Shown here: positions 2,460 through 53,655 of the stretch, piece after piece
Layout: every line of letters starts with the position of its first letter
Position numbering within the stretch: position 1 is the first letter of the stretch
DNA from: a virus
Direction: 5' to 3' (one strand)
DNA length: 64,000 nucleotides
Virus record (IMG/VR): IMGVR_UViG_3300010413_000011
Location: 28,701-92,700 of that record
Made by a program: the position numbers and the translations under genes
Notes under the pieces: model-generated
Told to the model about the DNA's origin: nothing
Seen by the model: the letters and a program-made list of their open reading frames with translations, nothing else
Databases searched by the model: none

Positions 2460-3984
2460 ACAAGGCAAGGTTAAAACCAAGGATGGTTGGCCAGTCAAGA
2501 GTGCTTGGCCAACAGAGAGAGGACGAGAATTAGGCACATGGCCTACGGCGGGAAGGTTCGAGTCTCTACCAGGAGATTACAGTACTGAGTACAGCGATCG
2601 AGAGTTAGTAGATCTCAAGGTACAATCTATGAAGAGAGCATTCGGATTAGTGGCACCAGAGGTTTGTGACGACAAAGAACTGCTTTCAGTACTTGCGAGA
2701 CTCGGGCCTAAGACCTTAGTCAAACTGACCGAGATCATCAGAGATCTCGTGCTGTTTTTAGCATATAGGTCGGACGCGCCAAAGACGGCTTTGGGCTTTT
2801 GGCTAAAAGGCGATGGAACCGTAAAGGTTAACAGGCCAGTTCATGCTGGCGGAAACAAAGGGCCTAAACGAAGGCTCGTAAAAAAACAAAGGAGGTTTAC
2901 GATGGCAAAGGGAAAGAAAAAAGAGTCCAAGAAAAAGGACGGCAAGAAAAAAGGGTCGAAGAAGGATGCGCTCAAGGGCTACACCAGAGACGACCTGAAG
3001 AAAATCGCGAAGGAAGTTGGCGTAAAGGTCAAAAAGTCGATGTCCGATGAGGAACTCGTCGAGGCTTTGGAAGCGGCTATTGGGTCCGTAGACCCGGACG
3101 AGTGCTCGTCCAAGGTTACCAAGTTCTACGGCGCTCTCGGCTATGTCATCAAGGACGATGACGACGAAGACGACTCCAAGAAAAAGAAGGGGAAGAAGAG
3201 CAAGAAAAAGTCCGAACCGGAACCCGAGGACGATGAGGACGAAGACGAGGACGAAGACGAAGACGAGGACGAAGACGAAGACGAAGACGAAGATGAAGAC
3301 GAGGACGAAGACGACTCCAAGAAAAAGAAGGGGAAGAAGAGCAAGAAAAAGTCCGAACCGGACGAAGACGAAGACGAAGACGAAGACGAAGACGAAGACG
3401 AAGACGAAGACGAGGACGACGAAGTCGACTCCGACGACGAAGAGGACGAAAGCGAAGCGACCGAGTTCGAAAAAGGCGACCGGGTCGTGGCAGAGATCGA
3501 GGGTGAGGACTACGCCGGCGAGATCATCAAACTGGTCGGCGAGGATGAGGCCAAGATCAAGTTCGATGACGGGGACAAGATGACCTTGGCTCTGTCGGAA
3601 CTCCGGGCCGAAGACGATGACGAGGAAGGCGACGAAGACGAAGACGAAGACGAAGACGAGAAACCCAAGAAGAAGTCCAAGAAAGGCAAGGACCGCAAGG
3701 CAGCGGCCGCCGAAAAGAAAAAGGCCAAAGAGGAGCGCCGGACCAAGATCGAAAAGGGAATCCCGTACTCTGACAAGGCTCTGAACAAAATGATCAGGCG
3801 GGAACTCCTGGTCCTGGCCAGCATACTCGGCGTCAACACCTGGGAACTGAAGGACACTGACAAAATCAGGGAAGCCTGCAAAAAGGCGCAGAAGAAAGGC
3901 AAGGGCGGCTCCGAGAAGTCCGAAAACAAGAAGGAAAAGAAATCGAAGGACAAAAAGTCCAAGAAGAAAAAGAGCAAGAAATAA
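2392..3984 (+). CDS. Acidic/lysine-rich protein with SAP-like and Tudor-like modules
   Basis: A 530-aa ORF starting 8 nt after GGAGGAGGTC. Residues 1-170 form a small globular-looking domain. From Met171 (2902) comes a lysine-rich start, then a SAP/Rho-N-like helix-extended loop-helix (YTRDDLKKIAKEVGV). Long Asp/Glu runs, an SH3/Tudor-like segment (FEKGDRVVAEIEGEDYAGEI), a second helical DNA-binding-like segment (RRELLVLASILGVN) and a lysine tail follow. The SAP-like parts suggest nucleic-acid association. Met171 has its own SD (AAAGGAGGTTTACG before ATG), so a separate 360-aa product is likely. Function unknown; a histone-chaperone-like or DNA-organising role is a guess. Confidence 0.7.
   Translation: MAQEGSRRFAKKEKPASGKKFVKQGKVKTKDGWPVKSAWPTERGRELGTWPTAGRFESLPGDYSTEYSDRELVDLKVQSMKRAFGLVAPEVCDDKELLSVLARLGPKTLVKLTEIIRDLVLFLAYRSDAPKTALGFWLKGDGTVKVNRPVHAGGNKGPKRRLVKKQRRFTMAKGKKKESKKKDGKKKGSKKDALKGYTRDDLKKIAKEVGVKVKKSMSDEELVEALEAAIGSVDPDECSSKVTKFYGALGYVIKDDDDEDDSKKKKGKKSKKKSEPEPEDDEDEDEDEDEDEDEDEDEDEDEDEDEDDSKKKKGKKSKKKSEPDEDEDEDEDEDEDEDEDEDDEVDSDDEEDESEATEFEKGDRVVAEIEGEDYAGEIIKLVGEDEAKIKFDDGDKMTLALSELRAEDDDEEGDEDEDEDEDEKPKKKSKKGKDRKAAAAEKKKAKEERRTKIEKGIPYSDKALNKMIRRELLVLASILGVNTWELKDTDKIREACKKAQKKGKGGSEKSENKKEKKSKDKKSKKKKSKK
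2888..2904 (+). promoter_or_regulatory. Internal SD and start codon in frame
   Basis: AAAGGAGG is followed 6 nt later by ATG at 2902, in frame with the ORF begun at 2392. This would give a 360-aa product made of the SAP-like, acidic and Tudor-like parts only. Its quality matches the best SDs in the window. Confidence 0.65.
3163..3362 (+). repeat. 59-bp in-frame direct repeat with GACGAA runs
   Basis: Copies at 3163-3221 and 3304-3362 are identical and offset by 141 bp (47 codons). Each encodes DEDDSKKKKGKKSKKKSEP. Simple GAC/GAA codon runs lie between and after them. The region is prone to slippage, so length variation or assembly error is possible. Confidence 0.85.
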
Positions 3985-12037: not shown

Positions 12038-12940
12038 ATGCCAAAGAAAAAGGAAAAAAAGAAGGGCGGTAAAAAGAGTCTTATTGAAGAGGTTCAAAAG
12101 ACTCTGAAGGAACAAAATCGCAAGAGTGCCGGAGCGATGTTCGGCGACACTTCCATTTGGACTCCGGGTAAAGGGACCAATAAAATTCGGATACTACCGA
12201 GTTGGAACCCAGACGAAACTCCGGTCTTCTACAAAGAAGTTGCCTACCATTACTCGGTAGGACCTGATGAGTCGATTGTCATGTGTCCTCAAAGGATGGC
12301 CGGTAAACGGTGCTTCATCTGTGAGCAGGTCAAGGAGCTAAAAAAGGCAAAAGGCAAAGGAGCGAAGAAGGCAAAGGCTATCATCGAGAAGGTGAGAGCA
12401 AAGGGAAGAATTCTCTACAACATCGTGGACCTCAACGACAAAAAGGCTGGGATTCAGGTCTTTATCTCTGGACCAAAGATTTTCAAGGAATTGTTATCGA
12501 TGGTCATTGATGAGGATATCGGAGACATCTCCGACCCGAAAGAGGGATTCGATATCAAAATCATCCGCGAAGGTGAAGGTCTCGACACCGAGTACAGGGT
12601 CCGGGCCGCTGCGAAGGCAACAGCAATCAAGAAAAAGGCTTGGCTAAAAGGCCTGAACGATCTCGACGCTCTGGCTGGTGATCTCCCGAGTTATGAGGAT
12701 ACCAAGGCGGCTTGGGAAGGCGAAGACGAAACGGACGACGAAGAGGATGACGACGACGAGGAAGCAGACGACGAAGAGGATGACGACGAAGACGAAGAGG
12801 ATGACGACGAAGACGAAGAGGACGAGGATGACGAAGACGAAGAGGACGAGGACGACGATGAAGAAGATGACGATGACGAGGAAGAAGAGGAGCGTCCGAA
12901 GAAAAGTAAAAAGAAAAAGAAGGGAAAGAAAAAGAAGTAA
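12038..12940 (+). CDS. gp32-like single-stranded DNA-binding protein
   Basis: A 300-aa protein with a lysine-rich start, a core containing a zinc-binding pattern (VMCPQRMAGKRCFICEQ) and a strongly acidic C-tail of over 60 Asp/Glu residues ending in a lysine run. This matches phage gp32-type SSBs, where an OB fold with zinc holds ssDNA and the acidic tail recruits partners. GGAGG precedes the ATG by 6 nt. The lysine run after the acidic tail is unusual and also ends the proteins at 2392 and 57701. Confidence 0.85.
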   Translation: MPKKKEKKKGGKKSLIEEVQKTLKEQNRKSAGAMFGDTSIWTPGKGTNKIRILPSWNPDETPVFYKEVAYHYSVGPDESIVMCPQRMAGKRCFICEQVKELKKAKGKGAKKAKAIIEKVRAKGRILYNIVDLNDKKAGIQVFISGPKIFKELLSMVIDEDIGDISDPKEGFDIKIIREGEGLDTEYRVRAAAKATAIKKKAWLKGLNDLDALAGDLPSYEDTKAAWEGEDETDDEEDDDDEEADDEEDDDEDEEDDDEDEEDEDDEDEEDEDDDEEDDDDEEEEERPKKSKKKKKGKKKK

Positions 12941-13872: not shown

Positions 13873-14850
13873 ATGTATGGTTATCAAATTTATCTGACCC
13901 ACGGCTGTAATCTGCGGTGTCGGCAATGTGGTGTCTGGAGGGCCAAATCGATCGGTCGGGAAAAACAATGGACCGAATGGGCAGCTATCCTACCGACCAT
14001 GGTCCAGGTTTTCGAGAAAACATTTCATCGGAAACCAGCGTTCAAATTGATGGGAGGCGAACCAACAATTTATCCGGGTTTCGAAGAAGTTTGTAGAGCA
14101 ATTAAAACACTCGGTTGTAATATTTCTGTTCTGTCGAATGTTAGTAAAACCTGGCAGTGGGAAATGTTGACTCGAGTTTTGGGAAAAGGGGATTCAATTT
14201 TCGTTTCAATGGATTTCTTTCCGAATAGAAGGAAACAATATGAGATGAGATCCGATCCGGCAGAAGAGAAGGCTTTTGCTGCCCTCCATTTCATCGAGAC
14301 CTTTCCCGACAACCAAACCGATTTCGAGGTCGGCGTAAATATTACGGTATCTTCGGATACCTTGCCTAGATTATCTGGCCTTATTGATTGTTTGGTTCAG
14401 TTGAACGCTAAGATGAATATTTGTCTTCGGCAAGGCAGCGAACCGAATGAGGACGAACTCTACCACGTTCTTAGGGCACCGAATCGAACTGGCAATTTAA
14501 ACCAGGAGGAGGTCGACCAGTTAGTCAAAATTATGCTATCCGACTTATTGCCAGTTCCAGATCTTTTTCTCGGATCAAAGGAATACATTAGGATAATTCA
14601 GGTTCACGGAGCGAATAACGATTGGCATTGTAGAGATCAACTCCACCTTCCGTATATTTATTTGGATTGCGATGGTTCGGTAATGGCGTGTCCAGACGTC
14701 GCCTTACCAGATCCTCAGGTTTTACCTTTAGCGAGTCCGACTCCTTTTGTTTGGACCGAGAGGATGTTGAAGACCTATCGTGCCAAATGTTGTGGCTGTA
14801 CTATTTCGTCAGCGATGACCGATGTTGTCGCAGCACTCTGGGAGAAATAA
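13873..14850 (+). CDS. Radical SAM enzyme with C-terminal cysteine-rich extension
   Basis: A 325-aa protein. CNLRCRQC (Cys12, 16, 19) is the CX3CX2C motif that binds the SAM-cleaving 4Fe-4S cluster, and LMGGEPT near 61 is the GGE motif. C-terminal cysteines (WHCRDQ, MACPD, KCCGC) resemble a SPASM/twitch domain with an auxiliary cluster. The ATG at 13873 follows AGGGGG; a GTG lies 6 nt upstream. It is followed one base later by the AOR homologue, so they are probably co-translated and work together. It lacks the usual QueE start and length, so 7-carboxy-7-deazaguanine synthase is unlikely. Substrate unknown. Confidence 0.85.
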   Translation: MYGYQIYLTHGCNLRCRQCGVWRAKSIGREKQWTEWAAILPTMVQVFEKTFHRKPAFKLMGGEPTIYPGFEEVCRAIKTLGCNISVLSNVSKTWQWEMLTRVLGKGDSIFVSMDFFPNRRKQYEMRSDPAEEKAFAALHFIETFPDNQTDFEVGVNITVSSDTLPRLSGLIDCLVQLNAKMNICLRQGSEPNEDELYHVLRAPNRTGNLNQEEVDQLVKIMLSDLLPVPDLFLGSKEYIRIIQVHGANNDWHCRDQLHLPYIYLDCDGSVMACPDVALPDPQVLPLASPTPFVWTERMLKTYRAKCCGCTISSAMTDVVAALWEK

Positions 14851-14851
14851 A

Positions 14852-16762
14852 ATGATACTTTCTGCTCCTAAAATTGCCCATATTGGCTTGGACAATCGAG
14901 TTTACCAAACTCATTGCCTTCATCCGAAAAATTTTTTACAATTTTTGGGAGGGCGAGGATTGAACAGTCATCTGACTTTTCAAAACCGCTCTATTAATTT
15001 CCCGATGGTTTTTATTACTCCAGGGTTGTTGACTGGAACTCTGTGTCCATCGTCGTCTCGCTGTACTATTGGTACTAATATATCACCCTCTTTAGGAAGA
15101 TGGGCTGATGGGAATCTCGGAGGATTTTTTGGAGCTGAACTAAGAAGAGCAGGTTGGAATCAAATTTGGTTAGAAGGTATTTCCGAAAAACCTATTTTAA
15201 TATATATTGAAAACCAAAAAATAAAAAGTGTTGACGCTGGTAATCTTTGGGGACTCGGAGTTCATGACACAACTGAGAGAATCCGAGAAGAGTTTGGGCC
15301 GGACGCTCAGTCTCTTGTAATCGGGCCGGCCGGAGAAACCCAGGTCGCGTACGCCTGCGTTATGTCGGGCGATAGAGCGGCAGGAGGAGGCGGTATTGGT
15401 GCCGTCCTCGGGAAAATGAAAGTCAAGGCGATCGTTGTTCGGGGAACTAGAGGTCTTGAACCTGCCCAACCCGAGGAGTTTATGGACGCTTGTCTGGCGG
15501 CTCATAAACAAGTTCGATCGAATCCTTTGTTCGGTGAGTTTTCACAATCTGGTACTTCAATTATTACATCCATTTATAAAGGAGTCAAAGCACTACCGGT
15601 TAATTATTGGGATAAAGGAGATTCGCCACACGCTTACAAATTCGAACCAGGAAATTTGAAGACGAAAGTTGTAAAAAGTCGAGCTTGCTATGGTTGTTCG
15701 ATTCATTGCTCTCATGAACTTACTTTCGGGTTCGAAGGGGTAGAGTACGAGGCGTTGAACGGGCTCGGTCTTAAAATTGGAATCACCGATCTAGACGAAT
15801 GCCTTCGTTTGATAAAATGGTTCAACAACCTGGGTCTCGATGTAGTCCAGACCTCTGGCGTTCTAGGTATGTTGATGAAAATGACCGAAGATGGCTTCGC
15901 GATGAATATGGATCGAATTAAATTTGGAGATGCTGAGGCTATTTGGACGCGAGTTGCTAGTTGGATGGATAGTAGAAGAAGAGATCTCAGTTTTTGGAAT
16001 GGTCTTGACGCCGGGTTCGAAAGATATTCTGAGATATTTCCTCCAGGTCCTGACGGAAATAAGGGCGATGTTCTTAAACGATTCCGTCGAAAGTATTCGG
16101 TCGATATTAAAAATTCAATGCCACCCAGCCTAGACTTCAGGGTTCCAGAAAACTTTGCGGCTACTATTGCTTGTATGACGGCTACTCGAGGCGCTGACCA
16201 TCTTAGAAGTTTGGCACCGATTGAGGCCTACGGTCAGTGGTACGGGAGAGAGGATCTCGAGGCGATGGCTATTCATTTTGGAATACCATCTGATATTATG
16301 AAAGAATGGTTGGACCTGGACGGGTTCGATCCTAAAATAAATTCGAAAAGTATAAGAGGAAAGGTTGCTATCATTTCTTACTTTCAAGATCAAAATGCTG
16401 TGACCGATGCCCTGGGTCTTTGTCGATTCGCCTCAAGTTGGAGAATGGGAGTCGGCCTCGAGTTGATGGCGGAGATGGTTTCGACTTTTCTTGGTATAGA
16501 TATGAACTGGTGTGGCCTGCGAGCAGTGGGCCAGAGGATAACCGTCTTAGAAAGATATCTGAACTCGAAAGTGTACGGCATGAATAAGTTCAGTGATTAT
16601 CCTCCCGAGAAATTTTTCGTAGAGCCTTTGAATGGGAGGAATCAACTCTCACATCATGACGTAAGATCAGCCCGCGATCAGTTCTATGAGTATAACGGAT
16701 ATGACGAGCAGGGATGTCCGACACCGGATACTTTTGAAAAATTAGGATTGGTTGTCAAATGA
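14852..16762 (+). CDS. Aldehyde:ferredoxin oxidoreductase (W/Mo) homologue
   Basis: A 636-aa AOR-family protein, close to the usual length of about 600. The N-domain has GGRGLNSH, TPGLLTGT, LGGFFGAELRRAGW and GDRAAGGGGIGAVLGKMKVKAI. CYGCSIHC (about 280-287) and DALGLCRF (Cys about 523) supply the four 4Fe-4S cysteines, and RGADHLR is the usual active-site stretch. AOR enzymes use a tungsto- or molybdo-bispyranopterin to interconvert aldehydes and carboxylic acids with ferredoxin as electron partner. Pyranopterin synthesis genes are not in the window, so the host would supply the cofactor. The next gene is a polyferredoxin with an ATGA overlap. Confidence 0.92.
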   Translation: MILSAPKIAHIGLDNRVYQTHCLHPKNFLQFLGGRGLNSHLTFQNRSINFPMVFITPGLLTGTLCPSSSRCTIGTNISPSLGRWADGNLGGFFGAELRRAGWNQIWLEGISEKPILIYIENQKIKSVDAGNLWGLGVHDTTERIREEFGPDAQSLVIGPAGETQVAYACVMSGDRAAGGGGIGAVLGKMKVKAIVVRGTRGLEPAQPEEFMDACLAAHKQVRSNPLFGEFSQSGTSIITSIYKGVKALPVNYWDKGDSPHAYKFEPGNLKTKVVKSRACYGCSIHCSHELTFGFEGVEYEALNGLGLKIGITDLDECLRLIKWFNNLGLDVVQTSGVLGMLMKMTEDGFAMNMDRIKFGDAEAIWTRVASWMDSRRRDLSFWNGLDAGFERYSEIFPPGPDGNKGDVLKRFRRKYSVDIKNSMPPSLDFRVPENFAATIACMTATRGADHLRSLAPIEAYGQWYGREDLEAMAIHFGIPSDIMKEWLDLDGFDPKINSKSIRGKVAIISYFQDQNAVTDALGLCRFASSWRMGVGLELMAEMVSTFLGIDMNWCGLRAVGQRITVLERYLNSKVYGMNKFSDYPPEKFFVEPLNGRNQLSHHDVRSARDQFYEYNGYDEQGCPTPDTFEKLGLVVK

Positions 16763-17679: not shown

Positions 17680-19257
17680 ATGAAATGGAATGAAGGAATC
17701 TTTAAGGCAAGAGAATTTCCAGACGAGCCGTTGAGTATGTTTTCTTGCCTAGCGGAATTGTGTAATTCGCAACCATCGGTCCCCTGGAATTATGCTGGTC
17801 GAATGATTCGAGTAACCGAAAAAGTTTCGATCGACTACGAGATAATGAAATTCGTTCGCGCTTCGGCTGACGATCCCTCTGGATTTAGCCCCGGGTTCAT
17901 ATTCGAGAATGTTTCGAGTGAGATGGCACCAGATCCGAAAACGACTCGATATCCAATCTCTGTTGTCGCTGGAATGTATGGAACCGAGGCACGAGTAAGT
18001 CGTATATTGGATTGGTGTTTAGGAACCAAAGAAAAATTCGACTTAAGTACTCCGGCCTGGCGAAAATATCAGCGAGCGTTGAACAGAACGTCACATGGCG
18101 TGGTTCGGATTTTTCCCGAAAGAGACGACTTAGGTCATGTATACGACATTCGATACGAACTCCAAGACCTTCCGATTTGTCTTCACAACGAAAGAGACGG
18201 AGGTCGATTCATCACCGGAGGTGTCCAGATCGTCTGGGATCCGGAATTCGAATGTTATGTCTCTGGTATTCACCGAATGAAGGTCATCGATAAAAATACT
18301 CTCGGGTGTTTGGCTACCGGCGAAAGAAGGATCGGTAGAGCGATAATGAAATGGCATGAACGAGGATTTAAGGCACCTGTTATTACATTAATAGGAGCCG
18401 CACCTTGCGACGTTTTCGCGTCTCAAGCCAAAGTACCTCATAACACGGATAAGTATGCTGTCGCAGATCGCTTCACACCCGGAAACGAGAAGAGAGATTT
18501 TTGTGGTTGGACTCCTTCCAAACATGCGAAATACGCTCCCGACCACTTACATATTATCCCTACAGATTCTGAAATTGTTATTTTGGGATTAGTTCCATTA
18601 GGCGAACCGAACAAACCAAACCTTATTAACGACAACCCGTTTGGGGAATTTCCTGGTACCTATTCCTTTTCGAATACTTCCGCGGCTTGGAGAGTAGAAG
18701 TAGAATATGTTATGACCAGATCCGACGCACCGATCTATCAAACCATGACCACCGGATTCCCTGTGCTCGAGGATCATATTCTTTGTGGCACGGCGAATGT
18801 TCCTTACCTCTTCGAAATTCTTCAAAGAGCCTGTTCAGAAGTGGTCGATATTAGCTTGGGAAAAGAAGGCAACTATGTTTTCGATGCTCACGTTTCCATT
18901 AAAAAGAGAATGTCTGGCGAAGCGCGCAATGTTATTTTAGCAGCGCTCTCGACCGTCACTATAAAAAGTGTTTGGATATACGACGACGACATCGACGTTC
19001 ATAATCCTCGTGACCGGCAGTTCGCATGGAACACGAGATACCAGCCTGCGACCGATACAATTATTATTGGCCATCCTTTGGTTGGTTCGAGTCTCGATCC
19101 ATCTTGTCCTGTCTTTCGGCACACGACTAAGGTAGGTTTTGACTGTACCAAACCTTTAGGTCAGGAGGATCGATACAAAAAGGCTTTGTGGCCAAAGGAT
19201 GAAATAGAAATCTATTCGAAAAAAGTACTCGATTTAATCGATAAGTGGGAGGACTAA
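17680..19257 (+). CDS. ubiD: UbiD-family prenyl-FMN-dependent (de)carboxylase
   Basis: A 525-aa protein, the usual UbiD length. Landmarks: SGIHRMKV (about 193-200; its Arg aligns with the catalytic Arg of Fdc1), GAAPCDVFAS, TDSEIVILG, NPFGEFPGTYS (about 317-327; catalytic Glu kept), SIKKRMSGEARNV, IYDDDIDVHNPRDRQFAW and TKVGFDCTKP. The usual metal-binding Asn before the Arg and the first Glu of the GxxGE region appear replaced (Val and Asp by my alignment), which may change substrate or cofactor geometry. UbiD enzymes reversibly remove CO2 from aromatic or unsaturated acids. GGAGAAG precedes the ATG. The UbiX that would make its cofactor is at 60385. Confidence 0.92.
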   Translation: MKWNEGIFKAREFPDEPLSMFSCLAELCNSQPSVPWNYAGRMIRVTEKVSIDYEIMKFVRASADDPSGFSPGFIFENVSSEMAPDPKTTRYPISVVAGMYGTEARVSRILDWCLGTKEKFDLSTPAWRKYQRALNRTSHGVVRIFPERDDLGHVYDIRYELQDLPICLHNERDGGRFITGGVQIVWDPEFECYVSGIHRMKVIDKNTLGCLATGERRIGRAIMKWHERGFKAPVITLIGAAPCDVFASQAKVPHNTDKYAVADRFTPGNEKRDFCGWTPSKHAKYAPDHLHIIPTDSEIVILGLVPLGEPNKPNLINDNPFGEFPGTYSFSNTSAAWRVEVEYVMTRSDAPIYQTMTTGFPVLEDHILCGTANVPYLFEILQRACSEVVDISLGKEGNYVFDAHVSIKKRMSGEARNVILAALSTVTIKSVWIYDDDIDVHNPRDRQFAWNTRYQPATDTIIIGHPLVGSSLDPSCPVFRHTTKVGFDCTKPLGQEDRYKKALWPKDEIEIYSKKVLDLIDKWED

Positions 19258-20649: not shown

Positions 20650-20825
20650 AAGTAGTCGCAACACAACTAAAACTCGAGAACATAGAAATTCTCCACAATG
20701 CGAAGAAGGGAGATACGCTCTCCCTAAAAATAATTAATACGCAGGAAGTGCCACTTGATGAAGACGGACTCGACCCAGACAGCTGTCTCTTGGTTCTCTT
20801 CGGACGATTGGGAACCGGGAACTAA
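20646..20825 (+). CDS. Small hypothetical protein coupled to ThyX
   Basis: A 59-aa ORF starting in an ATGA overlap with the ThyX stop. The sequence (KVVATQLKLENIEILHNAKKGDTLSLKIIN) predicts beta strands. Its last 68 bp overlap the start chosen for the next gene, so either this ORF or the far N-terminus of that gene may be wrong. Confidence 0.45.
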   Translation: MKVVATQLKLENIEILHNAKKGDTLSLKIINTQEVPLDEDGLDPDSCLLVLFGRLGTGN

Positions 20826-21897
20826 CGATAGAATAGGTTTTGAAAAAGTTTGCAATAAAGGAGTGCGCCGAGACACTTACAACGGTTTATACTTTAAGGG
20901 TGGATCAGGCGCCTCTGAATTTTTCAAAACCGAGCCAGATCAAAAGCAGATCAAAATTCATCGAACCAAGATCTTCTTAACCACTACTCGAGCACAACAC
21001 ATGTGGGGCCTTCTCGACGCGAACTACCCTTACATTTTAATGTCGTTTTGGTACTACAAGACCGTGACAAATGTTTTCGGTTCCCTCCGGAATGCCTTTG
21101 CTGCTCGAGATAAAAACATCGACGATTTCGAAATTATGGTAGATAGCGGCTCGTACAGTGCTACGGTCAAAGGTACCTCGGTAGATCTGGATACTTATAT
21201 TGAATGGCTCTACCACGAAGAGGATAATGTCGATTGGTATGTTAACCTCGATACTCAGTTCAAACCAGAAGAGGGACTTCGAAACTGGGCGATCCTTTGT
21301 GCGAACGGATTACATGACGCCATTCATGTCCACCATAGACCAGAGCCTTGGAAGTACTGGGATATTATAGCAGATCATTGTGGAGAGTTTGGAGGTCTTA
21401 GTCCGATGCCTCGAGCAAAGAGAGGCGTTAAACTCGAGTACTTTACCAAAGCTCATTCAATGCACCCACAGAAGAAACTTCATTGGTTTGGCTCTGTCGA
21501 TAAAGAGTTGGCCAAAATGTTCGATGTATATTCTATGGACTGCTCGAGTGCTGACGCGGTCGCTTATCGCGGGATTGTTTGGACTCCTTGGGGAGCGGTT
21601 AACCTGGGTTTTAACCCGAACTACAGTAATCACATTGATCGCTTACCTCTTGACATCCGCTCTAAGGTCACCGAATGGTTTATGACACATGGTTTTGAGC
21701 TTCATGATTTAAGGCCCGGGAGACCCTATATGCCTTCGCATAGATTCAGAATTTATTTCAACGCACTGGGTTATCTCGCGTCCATGGTCGAGATTGAAAA
21801 AGAGAAAAGTTTAATTGAGTTACCAGATCCAGAATGGATTCGGTCTTCGGAAATTTATACTAATTATGAAAGTGAGTTACCAAAAGGATGGAAGTGA
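20758..21897 (+). CDS. TGT/DpdA-like TIM-barrel protein, copy 2
   Basis: A 379-aa protein. Landmarks: IMVDSGSYSATVKG, WYVNLDTQFKPE, DAIHVHHRPEPWKYW, GGLSPMPRAK, KLHWFGSVDKEL and YSMDCSSADA. They fit the tRNA-guanine transglycosylase superfamily and resemble phage DpdA proteins, which place 7-deazaguanine derivatives into DNA. It shares most of these blocks with the 22121 gene, so the two are paralogues. It has about 35 extra N-terminal residues; the ATG at 20758 follows AGGAAG. The zinc-site cysteines of bacterial TGT are not evident. The substrate (RNA or DNA) is unproven. Confidence 0.72.
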   Translation: MKTDSTQTAVSWFSSDDWEPGTNDRIGFEKVCNKGVRRDTYNGLYFKGGSGASEFFKTEPDQKQIKIHRTKIFLTTTRAQHMWGLLDANYPYILMSFWYYKTVTNVFGSLRNAFAARDKNIDDFEIMVDSGSYSATVKGTSVDLDTYIEWLYHEEDNVDWYVNLDTQFKPEEGLRNWAILCANGLHDAIHVHHRPEPWKYWDIIADHCGEFGGLSPMPRAKRGVKLEYFTKAHSMHPQKKLHWFGSVDKELAKMFDVYSMDCSSADAVAYRGIVWTPWGAVNLGFNPNYSNHIDRLPLDIRSKVTEWFMTHGFELHDLRPGRPYMPSHRFRIYFNALGYLASMVEIEKEKSLIELPDPEWIRSSEIYTNYESELPKGWK

Positions 21898-33989: not shown

Positions 33990-34163
33990 ATGAAAAATTG
34001 GGTTTGTACCGTTATTGCTGCTATATTGCCTGAGCGAGTCGTTTATTTTGTGGCGATTCGGTTAGGCGCTTACGCTACAACAGGAAAATATTCGGATACG
34101 GTCGTTCCAGAGCTTCCCTTTATGGAAGCTATCAAACGATGGGAAAAAGACAAACTAAAATAA
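33990..34163 (+). CDS. Small conserved phage protein
   Basis: A 57-aa protein: ILPERVVYFVAIRLGAYATTGKY followed by FMEAIKRWEK. The pattern recalls small phage proteins seen in many genomes, function unknown. One amphipathic or membrane-leaning helix is possible. AAGGAGG precedes the ATG. Confidence 0.65.
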   Translation: MKNWVCTVIAAILPERVVYFVAIRLGAYATTGKYSDTVVPELPFMEAIKRWEKDKLK

Positions 34164-34181
34164 AAAAGGAGGAAAAAGGAA

Positions 34182-34499
34182 ATGGAAAACTCAAACACAT
34201 GGTTGGTGGTTGCTGTCGTTGTATTGGCGGTCTACTCGTTTCTATCTACAGCAATTCTGATGTTCACCATCGGAAAGTACAACAACATCAACAGTTGGGA
34301 AGACGCCAAGGATCTCTTTGAAAAGGAAAAGGATCGAATCCTCGAGGAGGCGGAGAAGAAGGGACGTGACAAAGTCATCACTCTTCTCCAAGAGGAGTTC
34401 AAACCTCTTGGAATAAAAATCGTCGATGGCGGAGGAGGAGAGAAACCAAAAGTGGTTCACGAACCAATAAAAGTTTCGGGAGATAAGGAAGCAACATAA
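34182..34499 (+). CDS. Single-pass membrane protein with coiled tail
   Basis: A 105-aa protein. Residues 8-30 (WLVVAVVVLAVYSFLSTAILMF) are a membrane segment, followed by a charged helix (FEKEKDRILEEAEKKGRDKVI) and a GGGG linker. It might sit in the inner membrane with the helix in the cytoplasm. A lysis accessory or membrane anchor are both possible. Confidence 0.7.
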   Translation: MENSNTWLVVAVVVLAVYSFLSTAILMFTIGKYNNINSWEDAKDLFEKEKDRILEEAEKKGRDKVITLLQEEFKPLGIKIVDGGGGEKPKVVHEPIKVSGDKEAT

Positions 34500-34540
34500 A
34501 AGGCTAATTGAGGCCTAAATAAAAAAGGAGGTAAAAGGAA

Positions 34541-34858
34541 ATGGCAAGTATAACAGATGTCGCTCGTGAGGCTGGCGTCAAAAGAGATGATGTAAAGAAA
34601 GTGATGAACGCTATCACCGGTATCGTTCGCAGGGGCGAACGGGTCACTTTCAAAGAGTTCGGCACCTTCTTTCCCAGGACCAGGAAGGCCAGGACTGCGC
34701 GGAACCCGAGGACGGGAGACTCCGTCAAGGTCCCGTCCAAAACCAAGATGGCATTCCGGACCAAGGTCGAGTTGAAAGACACGGCCAAGAAAAAGAAGGG
34801 AAAAAAGAAGCTCACCAAAGAGAAGGCCAAAAAGGCCGGCAAGAAAAAGAAGAAGTAA
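34541..34858 (+). CDS. HU/IHF-family DNA-bending protein
   Basis: A 105-aa protein. The N-half MASITDVAREAGVKRDDVKKVMNA and the arm ARNPRTGDSVKVPSK are HU hallmarks. A lysine-rich tail extends it past the normal 90 residues. It would bend and compact phage DNA or help at an origin. GGAGG precedes the ATG and a terminator follows. Confidence 0.92.
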   Translation: MASITDVAREAGVKRDDVKKVMNAITGIVRRGERVTFKEFGTFFPRTRKARTARNPRTGDSVKVPSKTKMAFRTKVELKDTAKKKKGKKKLTKEKAKKAGKKKKK

Positions 34859-47578: not shown

Positions 47579-47827
47579 TCAAACGACAAGTAAGTAAATT
47601 GCTATCGACAATAATAAAACCGACTCGAGCACATAGAGTCGATAGTGTTTCCAAAACTGAAGACGGTTAACAAAAACGATGTCTGAAATTTTTACCATGT
47701 CGTCCTCTCCGTCGATAACAAGAAAAGGTTCGACCCTTGTGTTATCGGGAAAAATTTCTGTATTTTCGCAAATCACTTTGTCACCAAGTACAACGACATT
47801 ACTTTTTACTTCCATTCCAATTTTCAT
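47579..47827 (-). CDS. Small tail-anchored membrane protein
   Basis: An 82-aa protein. A beta-rich first part (VVVLGDKVICENTEIF) leads to a C-terminal membrane segment (LYVLESVLLLSIAIYLLVV). GGGAGG precedes the ATG. It is the first gene of the leftward run and borders the repeat region; a promoter for the run should lie at 47.83-48.2 kb but I cannot point to a convincing one. Confidence 0.6.
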   Translation of the reverse strand: MKIGMEVKSNVVVLGDKVICENTEIFPDNTRVEPFLVIDGEDDMVKISDIVFVNRLQFWKHYRLYVLESVLLLSIAIYLLVV

Positions 47828-48720
47828 CCCTCGACCTCCCTTCATCAAACAAAAATAAAACTGTCGGGTGCCAAAACCCAACGCAATACCCAGACTGGAA
47901 ACAAACAAAACCCTAGGCGCCGTAACTCTCAACTCATTAATCGTTCCAGTCTCCAACTGCACAATAAAACAAAATAATAGCCATCAAAGTTCTACCCTAA
48001 GATTCGTAGGTCATCTAAAACAAAAATGATTCCAGTCAAACAAAAGTAAGTCAGGTACCCAAAGCAAAGAATCCCGACCACCGGAAACTGGAAAATATAT
48101 AGAAGTCGAATAGCGAAAAAGGGAGGCAGGGTAGAGGAGGGCAGAGAGAGTAGGTAGATATATAGTACTTGTATAGAGCCAGTAGTCACTAGTGCCTATT
48201 CCAGGAGCCCGGGAGCCGAACAATAAAGTATTCCTGCTTACTGCCGAGTCTATACGAACACGTATACTTCGACCACACTCGAATGGCGTGCGCCCGGCTG
48301 ACTTCGGTTCCATGCGAACCAGAGCGTATTGCAGTTGGAATACACTGGCAAGTTGCAGTATAGTCGGAGCTAGAGCGTATTGCAGTTCGAATACTCTCTA
48401 CCTTCGGTCTGCCCTTCCCTAGAGCCGCAGACTATAATTATCGATAATTAAATATACTGGATAGATAGTTGGAACGACAAGTACTGGAACTTGTGGACAA
48501 TGCATTATTAGCTAGTTTTGTTGTTCGTCTCTAGGGTGGATCTCGCGGTACTGGCAATATGGTGCAGTCTGGGTGGCGCCCCGGGCCTCGTGGATCCGTA
48601 CGATTGCACCTCTGCCATCTCCTCTTAAACTGCAGATCCTTGACAATTAACCAGAAGTAGATTTTGGAATACGAATACTGCAATTGCAGTTATTTACCTA
48701 CGAACTAAATTGGATATTCG
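47828..48720. other. Gene-free stretch, left flank of the repeat region
   Basis: No credible gene. Holds AGAGCGTATTGCAGTT twice (near 48321 and 48372), an inverted-looking pair of GACTGGA/TCCAGTC, and a perfect 16-bp palindrome TAATTATCGATAATTA near 48434-48449. A 25-bp copy of a sequence at 52345 lies at 48673-48697. Leftward promoter signals are expected but unclear. Confidence 0.6.
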
Positions 48721-49817
48721 AGGCGCATGAAACCGGAGTCATCTGGTCATTTCGTTGTTCGGGTTTCGATCTGAATCTGCAGTATTTTCTCGGATTCCGA
48801 TTTTTCGATTTTGGAATTGGCATAGATCCGGACCCATCTGCTCATTTTGTATAACTGACTCGAGTCAAGGTATGGACGAGTTTGTAAAATAAAAGGCGCA
48901 TGGAACCGGACCCAAATCGAAATTTTGTTGTTCTGCCTCCTATCTGATATTGCAGTATTTTCTCGGATTTCCATTTTCTAATAATTGAAATGGCATGGAT
49001 CCGGACTCATCTCGGACTTTTGTTGTTCTGACGGAAATAGTGGATATTGCAGTATTCCGATGAGTGGGAGAGTCCGGTTCTATGCCAAACCTATAATTCG
49101 GTATTTTGAGGGGTGAACTAAATTTACAAATAGAGGTCGCATAGAACCGGACTCTCCTTGAAATTTCGTTGTTCTGGTTCGCATCTGATCTTGCAGTGTT
49201 TTCTCGGATTTCCATTTTCTAATAATCCAAATGGCATGGAACCGGAGTCTCCTGGTCAAAACGTGTTGCTGCCGAATTGTGTCTCATTTGCACTCTACTG
49301 CATTCTTCGGTTTTATTAGAAGTCAACCGGAATTTGAGGAGATACGGGGAGACTCGAAGTCCTGCACAATTTGGCAGAACGAGATTTTGTAATATGAATA
49401 CTGCAATTCCACTAATTTAGTTGGTCGCAGATTGTCAAAATAAAGTCGCATAGAACCGGACCGAGATCAGAATTTCGTTGTTCTGGTTCGCATCTGATCT
49501 TGCAGTGTTTTCTCCGATTTGACTTTTTGGATTATTGAAATGGCATGGAACCGGACCCTCCCGGTCATTTTGTATAACTGACTCGACTCTCAAGAGTGGA
49601 GGAGATTTGGAAATTGAGGTCGCATAGAACTGGACTCTCCCGGTCATTTCGTTGTCCGGGTTCCTATCTGATATTGCAGTACTTTTTGCAATTTGGGATT
49701 TCTAATAATCCAAATGGCATGGAACCGGACCCAAACGGGCATTTCGTTGTTCTGACGGATATTGCTGAAATTGCAGTATTCTCATGACCAGATGAGTCCA
49801 CTTCTATGCGGGCCGGC

Positions 49818-50641
49818 TAAGTGCATCAATAACAGCATACTGCACTTCTTCCACAACTTACCCTATACTAATTATAGGTTTATCTTCGCCAAATCTCGAA
49901 CGATAAATGACCAGGAGATGCGGTAGGTACCGCACTTCGAGAAATCTATAAGTCGGCCTCCACCGAGATCCGCGACGATAACTTACGATTTCAACAAAAT
50001 GCGGTAGGTACCGCACCAGATAACAATTGTCGAGATCTCAAAAGACTTATTAAGTCAAATTCTCACTTTCTGCGGTAGGTACCGCAATCCGGTTTATCTG
50101 GATAGTCGGCCTCGGGCGAGAATGGTCACGATAACCCTAAAATTCCATCTCCTGCGGTACCTATGCGCCCAGATAACAATTGTCGTAATTTGAGAAGACT
50201 TGTCAAGTTAAATGACCGGAAAGGCCCGGAGGTACCGCATCCGTGGAATCTGGGTTGGCGACCTCCGGCGAGATCTCCCAAGTTTCCCATAGTTTTCTAT
50301 AAAATGCGGTAGGTATGCGACTAGATACCAATTGTCGTAATTTTTCAAGACTTGAGCGATAAAGTCTCATCTCCTGCGGTAGGTACCGCAGCCACCGAAA
50401 CTGCTCGCGTCACAATTGTCGAAATCCTCTGCGATTCACCCAAAGTCTAATTAAATGCGGTAGGTACCGCAATAGATTCGACTTTTGAGATCCCAAACAA
50501 ACTCTAGTGGATAAAGTGCACTTTTCTCGGAATCGCTGAAGTCTTCTAAAAAAACTGCACAAGATCCACCATAAGTTAAACCCATAATTAGTCCAGGGTA
50601 AATACCGATAGAAGTGCAGTATGCTGTTATTGATGCACTTA
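49818..50641. repeat. Long inverted repeats enclosing the 16-mer array
   Basis: 49818-49849 is a perfect 32-bp complement of 50610-50641. Similarity continues inward, imperfectly, to 49884 and 50575. The 824-bp block has no ORF. It resembles a palindrome-bounded origin or centromere module, or a small mobile element without a transposase. Confidence 0.8.
49919..50471. repeat. Array of eight 16-bp palindromic boxes at alternating 81/71-bp steps
   Basis: The box is TGCGGTAGGTACCGCA. Copies start at 49919, 50000, 50071, 50153, 50224, 50305, 50375 and 50456; those at 50153, 50224 and 50305 are degenerate. Steps are 81, 71, 82, 71, 81, 70, 81. Short intervals share AGATAACAATTGTCG. Three of the four long intervals share a GTCGGCCTC...CGAG-type core. 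So four copies of a unit of about 152 bp exist. A ninth near-match is at 51346. Iterons of a replication origin or partition site are likely. Confidence 0.85.
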
Positions 50642-51099
50642 CCTCCGAATGACAAAATGAGGAGATGACTCCGGTTCTATGCGAGGTCGGAATAAATAAA
50701 CTGCAATTCCAGTATATTAGTTGTGAACGAGATTTGGAAATTGAGGGTGCATAGAACCGGACCCATCTCGGAATTCTGTTGTTCTGCCTTCGATCTGTTC
50801 TTACAGTACTTTTTGCAATTTGGGATTTCTAATAATTCAAATGGCATAGATCCGGACTCTCCTGGTCATTTCGTTGTTCTGACGTAAGACTCCGAGAATG
50901 CAGTATTCGTATGCCGCGCTAGGTCCCTATCTATGCCAATCCAATATTCTAACACTGACCCAATCTCAAAAGTCAAGGCGCATAGAACCGGACTCAAATC
51001 GGAATTTCGTTGTCCGGGTTCCTATTTGATATTGCAGTACTTTTTGCAATTCCACTTTCTTGAAAAATAAAATGGCATGGAACCGGACCCATCTGGTCA

Positions 51100-52486
51100 A
51101 AACCTTGTTCTGCCGAATTGTCAAGAATCTGCAGTCTCCCGAGAGAGGCTCCTCCAACATACGTACGGATCCAGTGGTCTCGGGCCACCCGGTAGACTGC
51201 AGATCCTTAAGGCTCACTGCAGATCCGGTCATGGTCTGCAGTTCAAATCTAGCCAATACTGCATTGTCACAAGTATCAGTGGCTTAGGTATTATAATTAT
51301 ATTTAATTAATATCGACTGGATACTAATTATAAGTGCCAGTCTAGTCCGGTAGGTACCGCAGATCCTCGGACTATTCGAACTCCAATACAGTATCGTTGG
51401 ATATAGGAATAAAAATAATCTTCTGCCCAGGGCAGGCAGAGGAAATCAATAGTATACGAAGTCCGATCCAGTCCGACTCCAATCGAACAACCTAGAACAA
51501 AAGGTATCCAGGGCTAGGTCGCATAGTACCGGAGCTACATCGATCGTATCGTGTTGGCATTGGAAAAAGAATATTTTTCTTTTACTTCGAGGGTCGGCCC
51601 TGGAGACGAAGGCCCCTGGCAGGTTCTTTGGTCAAGGAATGGATCGCTATCTGTCGGGTTAGTTGCAAATTCCTACAATAGATTTTCTCGGAGATCGACT
51701 TGATAGAAAAATTTTTGCAATATATTTTCCAGGGGACAGGCCCGAGGACTAGTGACTGCCCTTCTATGTCTGCCCGAGGCACTACCGACTACTCTTTTTT
51801 TACTCGAGTCCCCAGGGCTCGGACAGTATTCGCCTGCCTATATGGGGTTATTCCGGATCCGGTTTAGAGTTTGTATTCCATTCCGTTCGGAGTATTCAGT
51901 TGTGAGTATTTATTCCTGCATATTGGAACTGGAATATGCAGTATTGCATAACTGGCTAGTGCAGGTTTGATGCGGGGTAGAGCCGAATGCAGTATTGGAA
52001 GGCCTATACAGTGAAATCTTAAAGAAGAACTTGTGGAATATCTGATAGTTACAGTAAAGTTTGTGGAATTAGGCGCTTATAAACTTGATTGGAAGTGCAG
52101 TGATTTACAGAGGGTACCCAATTCGACGAAGTCTCTTGCATTTTAAGGGGTTCTTTTGAGTCCGACTTGGCCCCTAAACTACTGGAATTGCAGTATCTGG
52201 GTTTGAGGGGCTAGGGGAGGGTGGCCTTTTTGTCGAATTAAGGGAGATCTCGAGTCTGGGGCGGGCGGCTCGGTCGCAGGTTTGGTCGATTGGAGGTCGG
52301 AGAGAGTCGCTGTTTGTCGCAATTTGGCTGAAATGGAAATACTGGAATACTGCAATTGCAGTTATTTACGTTCGAAATGGATTTTGAGGTCGACTGTAAG
52401 TTGCAGTGTTTCCAGTAGAACTTCGGTTTTTGGCCTTTTTGACCCTTTTGTCTAGGGGTACGGCTAAGATCCTATAAAACTTTTTT
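51100..52486. other. Gene-free right part of the repeat region
   Basis: No credible gene. Contains scattered CTGCAGATCC, a ninth array-type box (51346-51361), an AT-rich block near 51290-51332 like one near 48431, and at 52345-52369 an exact copy of 48673-48697. Remaining sequence shows no pattern I can explain. Confidence 0.55.
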
Positions 52487-52573
52487 CCAGTAAATAGTGG
52501 ATATTGCAGTATTCGTAGAAATCTCTTAAAAAGTTTTTATAAAAAAACACTGCAATATCCACTATTTGGTCAT
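52487..52573. repeat. 87-bp hairpin element, copy 1
   Basis: Outer arms AAATAGTGGATATTGCAGT (52492-52510) and its complement (52549-52567) give a 19-bp stem. An inner AAAAAGTTTTT can pair. Identical to 53488-53574. It lies upstream of a promoter. Confidence 0.85.
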
Positions 52574-52626
52574 CGAAAATCTGCACTATTTCGTTCATAA
52601 AAGTACTAGTTTACAAGTCGCCGAAT

Positions 52627-52654
52627 TTGTCTTTTTAAAAATGTATGCTACCAT
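52627..52654 (+). promoter_or_regulatory. Rightward promoter with near-zero leader
   Basis: TTGTCT (52627-52632), 16-bp spacer and TACCAT (52649-52654). The predicted start is near 52661, 3 nt before ATG 52664. It resembles the promoter at 53628 in motif and in lying downstream of the hairpin element. Confidence 0.5.
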
Positions 52655-52663
52655 AGCCTCATA

Positions 52664-52969
52664 ATGAAGAAGCAAGGAAATAAAAAAGAGGTCGAAAAAA
52701 AGGAGAGCAAAATGAAAAAGAGAGAAAGCAGCTATTATGGAATGATTTGTTGTCATTGTGGGACTCAGCAGGCGACAATGAAATTGGTCGAGGGTGAAAA
52801 TGTCAGATGTTATAATTGTGGTAAAGAGATCATGGCGGTCGATCATGTTAATAAGATGATTGATGGTCATGAGAAGGCGAGAGCAAAAGAAGAGAGGAAG
52901 AAGGCGGCTCAGATAAGGCGCATGAGAAAAAAGGCTGGAAAAGTTAAGAAAAGCAAGTTTGAGTGTTAA
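52664..52969 (+). CDS. Zinc-ribbon protein with two candidate starts
   Basis: 101 aa from ATG 52664, directly at the predicted transcript start; an 85-aa form starts at 52712 after AAAAAGGAG. CCHCGTQQ and RCYNCGKE form the zinc site, then a basic helix (RKKAAQIRRMRKKAGKVKK). Probably a nucleic-acid-binding protein at the head of the rightward run, perhaps a regulator. Confidence 0.65.
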   Translation: MKKQGNKKEVEKKESKMKKRESSYYGMICCHCGTQQATMKLVEGENVRCYNCGKEIMAVDHVNKMIDGHEKARAKEERKKAAQIRRMRKKAGKVKKSKFEC

Positions 52970-52994
52970 TTGATTGAAAGGAAAGGAGGAAAAA

Positions 52995-53288
52995 ATGAAA
53001 AAATTTGGATTGAAGGTCAAGGGTGAAGGCGCGATGGTCGATTTTGAGGCGAAGGATAAGGCGGCGGCTCTGGTGGTCATGGAAGAGCAGGCGGATGAAT
53101 GGGGCGTCGAGATCGAGGAAATGGAGCTGATTGAAGGCGGGCTCAAAATTGAGAGCAGTTATGTTTGTGAGGGTTGTGGCGCTGTTTGGGATGAGGATTT
53201 TTTGTTGGCGGGGCTCTCTGATGAGGGGGATGATTGGCATTGTTCGATTTGTCGGCAGTCTCAAAAGGACCCTAATATAGAGGATTAA
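52995..53288 (+). CDS. Hypothetical zinc-ribbon protein
   Basis: A 97-aa protein with a KFGLKVKGEGAMVDFEAKDKAAA domain, then VCEGCGAVWDEDF and WHCSICRQS. AAAGGAGG precedes the ATG. A terminator follows, so this and the previous gene form a two-gene unit bounded by the 87-bp repeats. Confidence 0.7.
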   Translation: MKKFGLKVKGEGAMVDFEAKDKAAALVVMEEQADEWGVEIEEMELIEGGLKIESSYVCEGCGAVWDEDFLLAGLSDEGDDWHCSICRQSQKDPNIED

Positions 53289-53306
53289 AGGGCGGTCGCA
53301 GAAAAA

Positions 53307-53333
53307 GGGCTCTCTTTTGAGAGTCCTTTTTTT
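53307..53333 (+). terminator. Rho-independent terminator
   Basis: GGGCTCTC-TTTT-GAGAGTCC (one G-U) followed by seven T. It ends the two-gene unit. Confidence 0.88.
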
Positions 53334-53487
53334 CCACTAATCCACTATATATAGAGCAGCCCGATATTTGGAGATACTGGAAAATACGAACAAAAAGATC
53401 TACTGCAAATTCGATTGGAACTTCCAATACTTCTGGTCGATTTTGGTCAAGGTCGAAAAATGGTCTATTCTCTCAAAAAAGATTTAT

Positions 53488-53574
53488 CCAGTAAATAGTG
53501 GATATTGCAGTATTCGTAGAAATCTCTTAAAAAGTTTTTATAAAAAAACACTGCAATATCCACTATTTGGTCAT
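53488..53574. repeat. 87-bp hairpin element, copy 2
   Basis: Exact copy of 52487-52573, 1,001 bp away in the same orientation. The 53289-53662 stretch has no gene: it holds the terminator, this element and the next promoter. Confidence 0.88.
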
Positions 53575-53627
53575 TAAGAAATCGGCGAAATTTGTTCGAT
53601 GATTGCAGTATTTACAAGAGCCCCGAC

Positions 53628-53655
53628 TTGACTTTTTCAATAAAATCAGTATCAT
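53628..53655 (+). promoter_or_regulatory. Rightward promoter with near-zero leader
   Basis: TTGACT (53628-53633), 16-bp spacer and TATCAT (53650-53655). The predicted +1 is about 53662, next to ATG 53663. No SD. Confidence 0.6.

Follow-up and report, generated by a model that had tools for sequence, protein, structure and literature searches.

What holds two short boxes exactly 95 bp apart in seven diverged copies, and what might the DNA that carries them do? These questions arise from a noncoding stretch of a virus genome. The window analysed here (64,000 nt, bases 28,701–92,700 of the 92.7-kb IMG/VR record IMGVR_UViG_3300010413_000011; all positions are those of the window) belongs to a virus that is, judged by its gene content, a tailed phage. 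The record codes for portal, head protease, capsid and tape-measure proteins, and for a replication and nucleotide set of DNA polymerase A (PolA), a primase-helicase, a helicase, ribonucleotide reductase and SbcC. RecA, a 5′–3′ exonuclease, a T4 gp32-type SSB, RuvC, SbcD, an HU-like protein and a sigma-like protein are coded as well.

The boxes lie in the sole large divergent intergenic region of the virus, between two gene clusters transcribed away from each other (Table 1) and at the opposite end of the record from the structural genes. Both gene strand and GC skew switch here, and the cumulative GC skew reaches a local minimum at 48,082. From 47,800 to 52,400, the codon-usage score does not exceed about 0.03 in any of the six frames, compared with a median of 0.15 and a 5th percentile of 0.04 for gene windows. 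Three kinds of short repeated site fill the locus, namely the box GCATrGAwCCGGA, the TGCAGT(A) site and the TGCGGTAGGTACCGCA dyad. A coding function of the repeats was considered and rejected, as 95 is not a multiple of three and the codon scores are flat.

Table 1. Coordinates of the noncoding locus, its repeated sites and the adjoining features
Feature	Position	Strand	Details
Last leftward gene before the locus	47579–47962	−	left boundary
Noncoding control locus	47963–52663 (4.7 kb)		flanked by divergent gene clusters
TGCAGT(A) field	48330–53609		about 40 sites on both strands; takes in the modules and both early-promoter repeats
Shorter AT-rich twin	48433–48451		opposite side of the array from 51274–51333
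Module 1 (type B)	48725–48832	+	box 1 48725, TGCAGT 48778, box 2 48820
Module 2 (type A)	48898–49085	+	box 1 48898, TGCAGT 48951, box 2 48993, TGCAGT 49048, inverted box 49073–49085
Module 3 (type C)	49139–49246	+	box 1 49139, TGCAGT 49192, box 2 49234
Module 4 (type B)	49448–49555	+	box 1 49448, TGCAGT 49501, box 2 49543
Module 5 (type A)	49622–49809	+	box 1 49622, TGCAGT 49675, box 2 49717, TGCAGT 49772, inverted box 49797–49809
Central cassette	49818–50641		69-bp inverted arms 49818–49886 / 50573–50641, 86% complementary
Eight TGCGGTAGGTACCGCA palindromes	49919–50471		five exact, three degenerate; alternating spacing 81–82 / 70–71 bp; starts 49919, 50000, 50071, 50153, 50224, 50305, 50375, 50456
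Extra inverted box	50670–50682	−	exact match, just before module 6
Module 6 (type A)	50749–50936	+	box 1 50749, TACAGT variant 50802, box 2 50844, TGCAGT 50899, inverted box 50924–50936
Module 7 (type C)	50980–51087	+	box 1 50980, TGCAGT 51033, box 2 51075; further TGCAGT 51130
AT-rich tract	51274–51333 (60 bp)		21.7% GC; among the record's five AT-richest 50-mers
Outlying palindrome copy TCCGGTAGGTACCGCA	51346–51361		outside the array
164-bp repeat, copy 1	52476–52639	+	just upstream of the first rightward gene; 84% identical to copy 2
First rightward gene after the locus	52664–52969	+	right boundary
164-bp repeat, copy 2	53477–53640	+	ends at sigma70-like promoter TTGACT-16-TATCAT, 53628–53655

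Box start coordinates bear out what a sequence-only reading had reported: the start of box 2 lies exactly 95 bp from that of box 1 in all seven modules, and in modules 2, 5 and 6 a third, inverted box ends 92 bp after the start of box 2. Twelve of the 14 paired boxes are exact GCATNGANCCGGA and the other two have one mismatch; the inverted boxes of modules 5 and 6 have two mismatches each. That reading had overlooked the extra inverted box before module 6, as well as two boxes with one mismatch, a forward one at 51521 and an inverted one at 48303. The rest of the 92.7-kb record has no exact match to the box and one match with one mismatch. When 14 boxes were placed at random in the interval, seven equal spacings arose in none of 20,000 trials, a null that ignores common descent. 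The sequence between the boxes had been described as varying at constant length; the length is indeed constant, but the 82-bp spacers are homologous (50–68 of 82 positions identical in every pair) rather than unrelated filler. Mean pairwise identity is 0.92 in the boxes, 0.69 in the remaining spacer and 0.44–0.55 in the flanks, and this higher identity supports a constraint on the boxes.

Equal spacing in repeats has to be judged against common descent first. The seven modules are 61–83% identical in an ungapped alignment, the box 1 and box 2 half-units are related to each other, and superunits of 450 bp are duplicated too (48637–49085 resembles 49360–49809, and 48873–49280 resembles 50724–51121, at 72% each). 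Because the modules are ungapped homologues, they are, by this alignment, copies of one ancestor, and their shared spacing is first of all inherited. A maximum-likelihood tree of the 108-bp modules has a length of 1.32 per site, or about 143 substitutions, and no indel, which is few for noncoding DNA. Outside the box-to-box intervals, the superunit alignments contain only two indels, of 1 bp and 10 bp. These counts support a constraint on the length of the whole block rather than of the box interval as such. That the box spacing is under selection, as first proposed, seems plausible given the lack of indels over some 143 substitutions, but it falls short of proof because ungapped duplicates keep their spacing by default and indels are rare in the homologous sequence outside the interval too.

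Support for the tree among module copies is poor, which suggests recombination between them. The locus could also consist of diverged, satellite-like segmental duplications with little present function, their equal spacing a result of ungapped descent. Modules, superunits and half-units are all nested duplicates, and the inherited spacing, the rarity of indels outside the box interval and the signs of recombination would suit such a history. We nevertheless consider it unlikely, as box identity stays high while the flanks drop, the TGCAGT offsets are kept, and some 5 kb of DNA without a function would be a burden on a tailed phage. As a separate observation, C↔G and A↔T exchanges among the copy differences within 48637–51121 outnumber the other transversions (105 versus 65, p = 0.003, an approximate value since the aligned blocks partly overlap). 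This excess would fit a conserved pattern of strong and weak bases; small in-place inversions as its source were rejected, being not above the null in independent blocks.

The fixed geometry reaches beyond the boxes, as TGCAGT keeps the same offsets within the modules. It starts 53 bp after the start of box 1, and hence 42 bp before box 2, in six of the seven modules, with TACAGT in the seventh, and again 55 bp after the start of box 2 (5.24 turns) in modules 2, 5, 6 and 7. At a helical period of 10.5 bp per turn, which was fixed beforehand, 95, 53 and 42 bp correspond to 9.05, 5.05 and 4.00 turns, in agreement with the roughly nine helical turns originally suggested. Intervals of 55, 78/79, 80 and 92 bp are not whole turns, however, and since the interval set was not chosen beforehand, the whole-turn fit is suggestive only.

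TGCAGT itself is concentrated in a 5.7-kb zone, with 40 sites where 1.6 are expected, versus seven over the remaining 87 kb, for an expectation of about 18. The longer TGCAGTA occurs 22 times in this zone and nowhere else in the record. The TGCA tetramer was found 80 times outside the noncoding zone (about 168 expected) and 58 times within it (16.8 expected). Two 164-bp repeats precede the two rightward early promoters, each with an inverted repeat of about 76 nt that has TGCAGT in each arm; copy 1 has a fold z of about −6 on both strands. A motif, TGCAGTATT, with 22 identical bases (AATAGTGGATATTGCAGTATTC), is common to module 2 and both 164-bp repeats. An additional role of the TGCAGT sites in early transcription is likely.

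Could transcription be the whole purpose of the locus? An array of operator or enhancer sites for a virus regulator of both divergent early clusters, with no replication role, would account for TGCAGTATT/AATAGTGGATATTGCAGTATTC ahead of the rightward early promoters and for the position in the only large divergent intergenic region. Such an array appears rather unlikely to us, as the boxes and dyads are absent from the virus's other promoters, about 2.5 kb and 60 sites far exceed the needs of an operator region, and sigma70-like promoter matches in the locus are no commoner than in shuffled sequence. Furthermore, no lysogeny repressor was found among the proteins scanned. One weak match to a 'transcriptional regulator' (phrog_10300, E 0.001) was obtained among the virus proteins.

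The second array is built differently. Between modules 5 and 6, the series is split by the central cassette, whose inverted arms enclose the regularly spaced TGCGGTAGGTACCGCA palindromes. In other viruses, the 16-bp dyad gave single matches in 13 contigs and no array, and the 22-bp sequence around the TGCAATTGCA palindrome had no match in IMG/VR.

An RNA fold had been offered as the other possible reason for the constant length. This idea found no support: neither the modules nor the half-units gave a consensus fold or covariation beyond shuffles, and no Rfam family matched. Covariation in the seven-module alignment did not exceed the null on either strand, the 14 half-units showed no consensus fold beyond controls, and single-strand folding was not consistently better on either strand. 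Similarly, the box hairpin had 65.5% paired cells, versus 66.7% in shuffles. The three type-A modules did reach a better consensus energy on the + strand than alignments with shuffled variable columns (−29.9 versus −17.9 ± 3.4), owing to possible pairing between box 2 and the inverted box. Transcribed structured RNAs with one fold per module would profit from this gain, but the inverted boxes alone account for much of it, and together with the null results it leaves such RNAs very improbable.

The reading we favour is that the locus is a cis-acting DNA control site where virus or host proteins assemble, most likely a replication origin; we hold it tentatively, with confidence just short of even. 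A protein-assembly site is preferred because the boxes are better conserved than the spacer, the sites are confined to one locus, an AT-rich tract flanks them and the position is divergent. Every exact box of the record falls in the locus, as do almost all of the TGCAGT sites and dyads, a distribution more in keeping with a local cis element than with a genome-wide operator. Of the possible protein-assembly sites, an origin seems the most likely, since the sites are absent from the other virus promoters and neither partition nor lysogeny genes turned up among the proteins scanned.

Several observations count for an origin, among them the noncoding divergent position, the skew minimum, the conservation of the boxes over the spacer, the fixed offsets and the dyad array, although the skew switch is not independent evidence because it coincides with the switch in gene strand. 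Clustered direct repeats, as in iteron origins, are present as 14 forward boxes in seven pairs, which with the eight dyads lie at one locus and would be putative initiator-binding sites. The AT-rich tract at 51,274 adjoins the repeats and is a candidate unwinding element, also as known from iteron origins. The virus's own replication set and HU-like protein would fit as well, and scanning the virus proteins, in a record that may be incomplete, revealed no integrase, ParAB or lysogeny repressor. Against an origin, searches with Pfam and PHROGs found no Rep initiator family, many early genes being without any match, and DnaA boxes form no cluster (two with one mismatch). The locus is also unusually large for an iteron origin, its three site families could mean several functions, and no such region appears in the IMG/VR records related by capsid protein, though most of these are fragments.

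Directly observed are the sites with their concentration in the locus, their geometry and their conservation relative to the spacers, and the divergent noncoding position. We infer protein binding, an origin function and a role for each kind of site and for HU, as follows. An initiator would bind the paired boxes and the dyads. A second protein would occupy the TGCAGT sites, found next to the rightward early promoters as well, and would thereby link the locus with transcription. If the DNA is bent, perhaps with the help of the virus HU-like protein, sites separated by 4, 5 and 9 helical turns could be wrapped together in a single complex; the AT-rich tract alongside would open. The regular dyads and paired boxes at one locus could also be read as the target of a segregation or terminase protein, in the manner of a centromere or a pac site. 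We judge such a partition or packaging site quite improbable, since the ParA/ParB-type genes that accompany a centromere are missing among the proteins scanned and the structural genes sit at the other end of the record.

How does a replication origin of this kind compare with known systems? The origin of the Vibrio cholerae satellite PLE lies in a noncoding region that has four types of repeat; RepA binds to one of these types, and that repeat is required for replication (PMC7145576). Like this iteron origin with its RepA_N initiator, the phage locus is noncoding and has several repeat types, both direct and inverted. One repeat type of PLE is the initiator-binding iteron, whereas the phage locus has no recognised initiator gene; its boxes are paired at 95 bp in diverged modules of about 150 bp, a second dyad array and a third site type are present, and it covers about 2.5 kb as opposed to a compact iteron origin. 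Cluster A mycobacteriophages have stoperators, asymmetric 13-mers to which a monomeric repressor binds and which are scattered through the genome (PMC9283540). The phage boxes resemble them in being asymmetric, about 13 bp long and numerous, and presumably in being bound by one phage protein. Stoperators, however, lie in short intergenic gaps and are oriented with transcription, whereas the boxes occur in both orientations and in 95-bp pairs at one noncoding locus, with no exact box outside it and no repressor found. Neither the PLE origin nor the stoperators match the anatomy of the phage locus. Herpesvirus-type lytic origins and EBV oriP are large noncoding origins that bring together repeated initiator sites, dyads and transcription sites. 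In layout, the phage locus would work like these, with no relation in sequence or protein and in a virus of bacteria with a tail.

No relative of the locus was found in any sequence collection searched. The double-box pattern with gaps of 67–97 bp had no match in IMG/VR, and a distant blastn search of the region against 50,697 phages gave none either. Double-box matches in bacterial genomes (n = 56) were rejected because they look like coding repeats or chance; their spacings are for the most part divisible by three, with 102 bp, as in TPR-type repeats, a frequent value, and 95 bp does not occur among them. A related capsid protein (45–56%) is present in 13 IMG/VR records, none of which shares locus DNA; seven of these were read over their whole length and lack a locus of this kind. 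Repeats do cluster in the longest capsid relative, but they lie inside a 2,274-codon ORF and were set aside. Scans with PolA, the primase-helicase and an AAA ATPase yielded no relatives.

A further-reaching version of the origin reading is a new type of replication-and-transcription control locus, in which three site families would form one large nucleoprotein complex with the virus HU and an initiator of an unrecognised family. Two of the site families do hold a fixed geometry of their own (95/53/42 bp in the modules and 81/71 bp in the dyad array); as a whole, this version is possible but doubtful. For most uncultured tailed phages, neither the origin nor the early control region is known, and this locus is unusually legible, with three site families, internal replicates and a geometry open to a half-helical-turn shift of one module. 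If it is an origin, a pull-down on one module would be a route to an initiator without a recognisable family.

Repeats were also seen elsewhere in the window. A near-identical 31-bp repeat (34158–34188 and 34517–34547) covers the ribosome-binding sites of the HU-like gene and of a small gene beside it, and an unassigned 530-aa ORF has repetitive coding sequence in common with the C-terminal part of the gp32-like SSB gene (3154–3684 and 12734–12934). In addition, genes for an aldehyde:ferredoxin oxidoreductase, a UbiD-type decarboxylase and a protein like queuine tRNA-ribosyltransferase lie at 14822–16762, 17680–19257 and 20755–21897, and a 4Fe-4S ferredoxin gene elsewhere in the record adds to the metabolic genes. 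Going by its gene content, this unusual set points to an anaerobic host.
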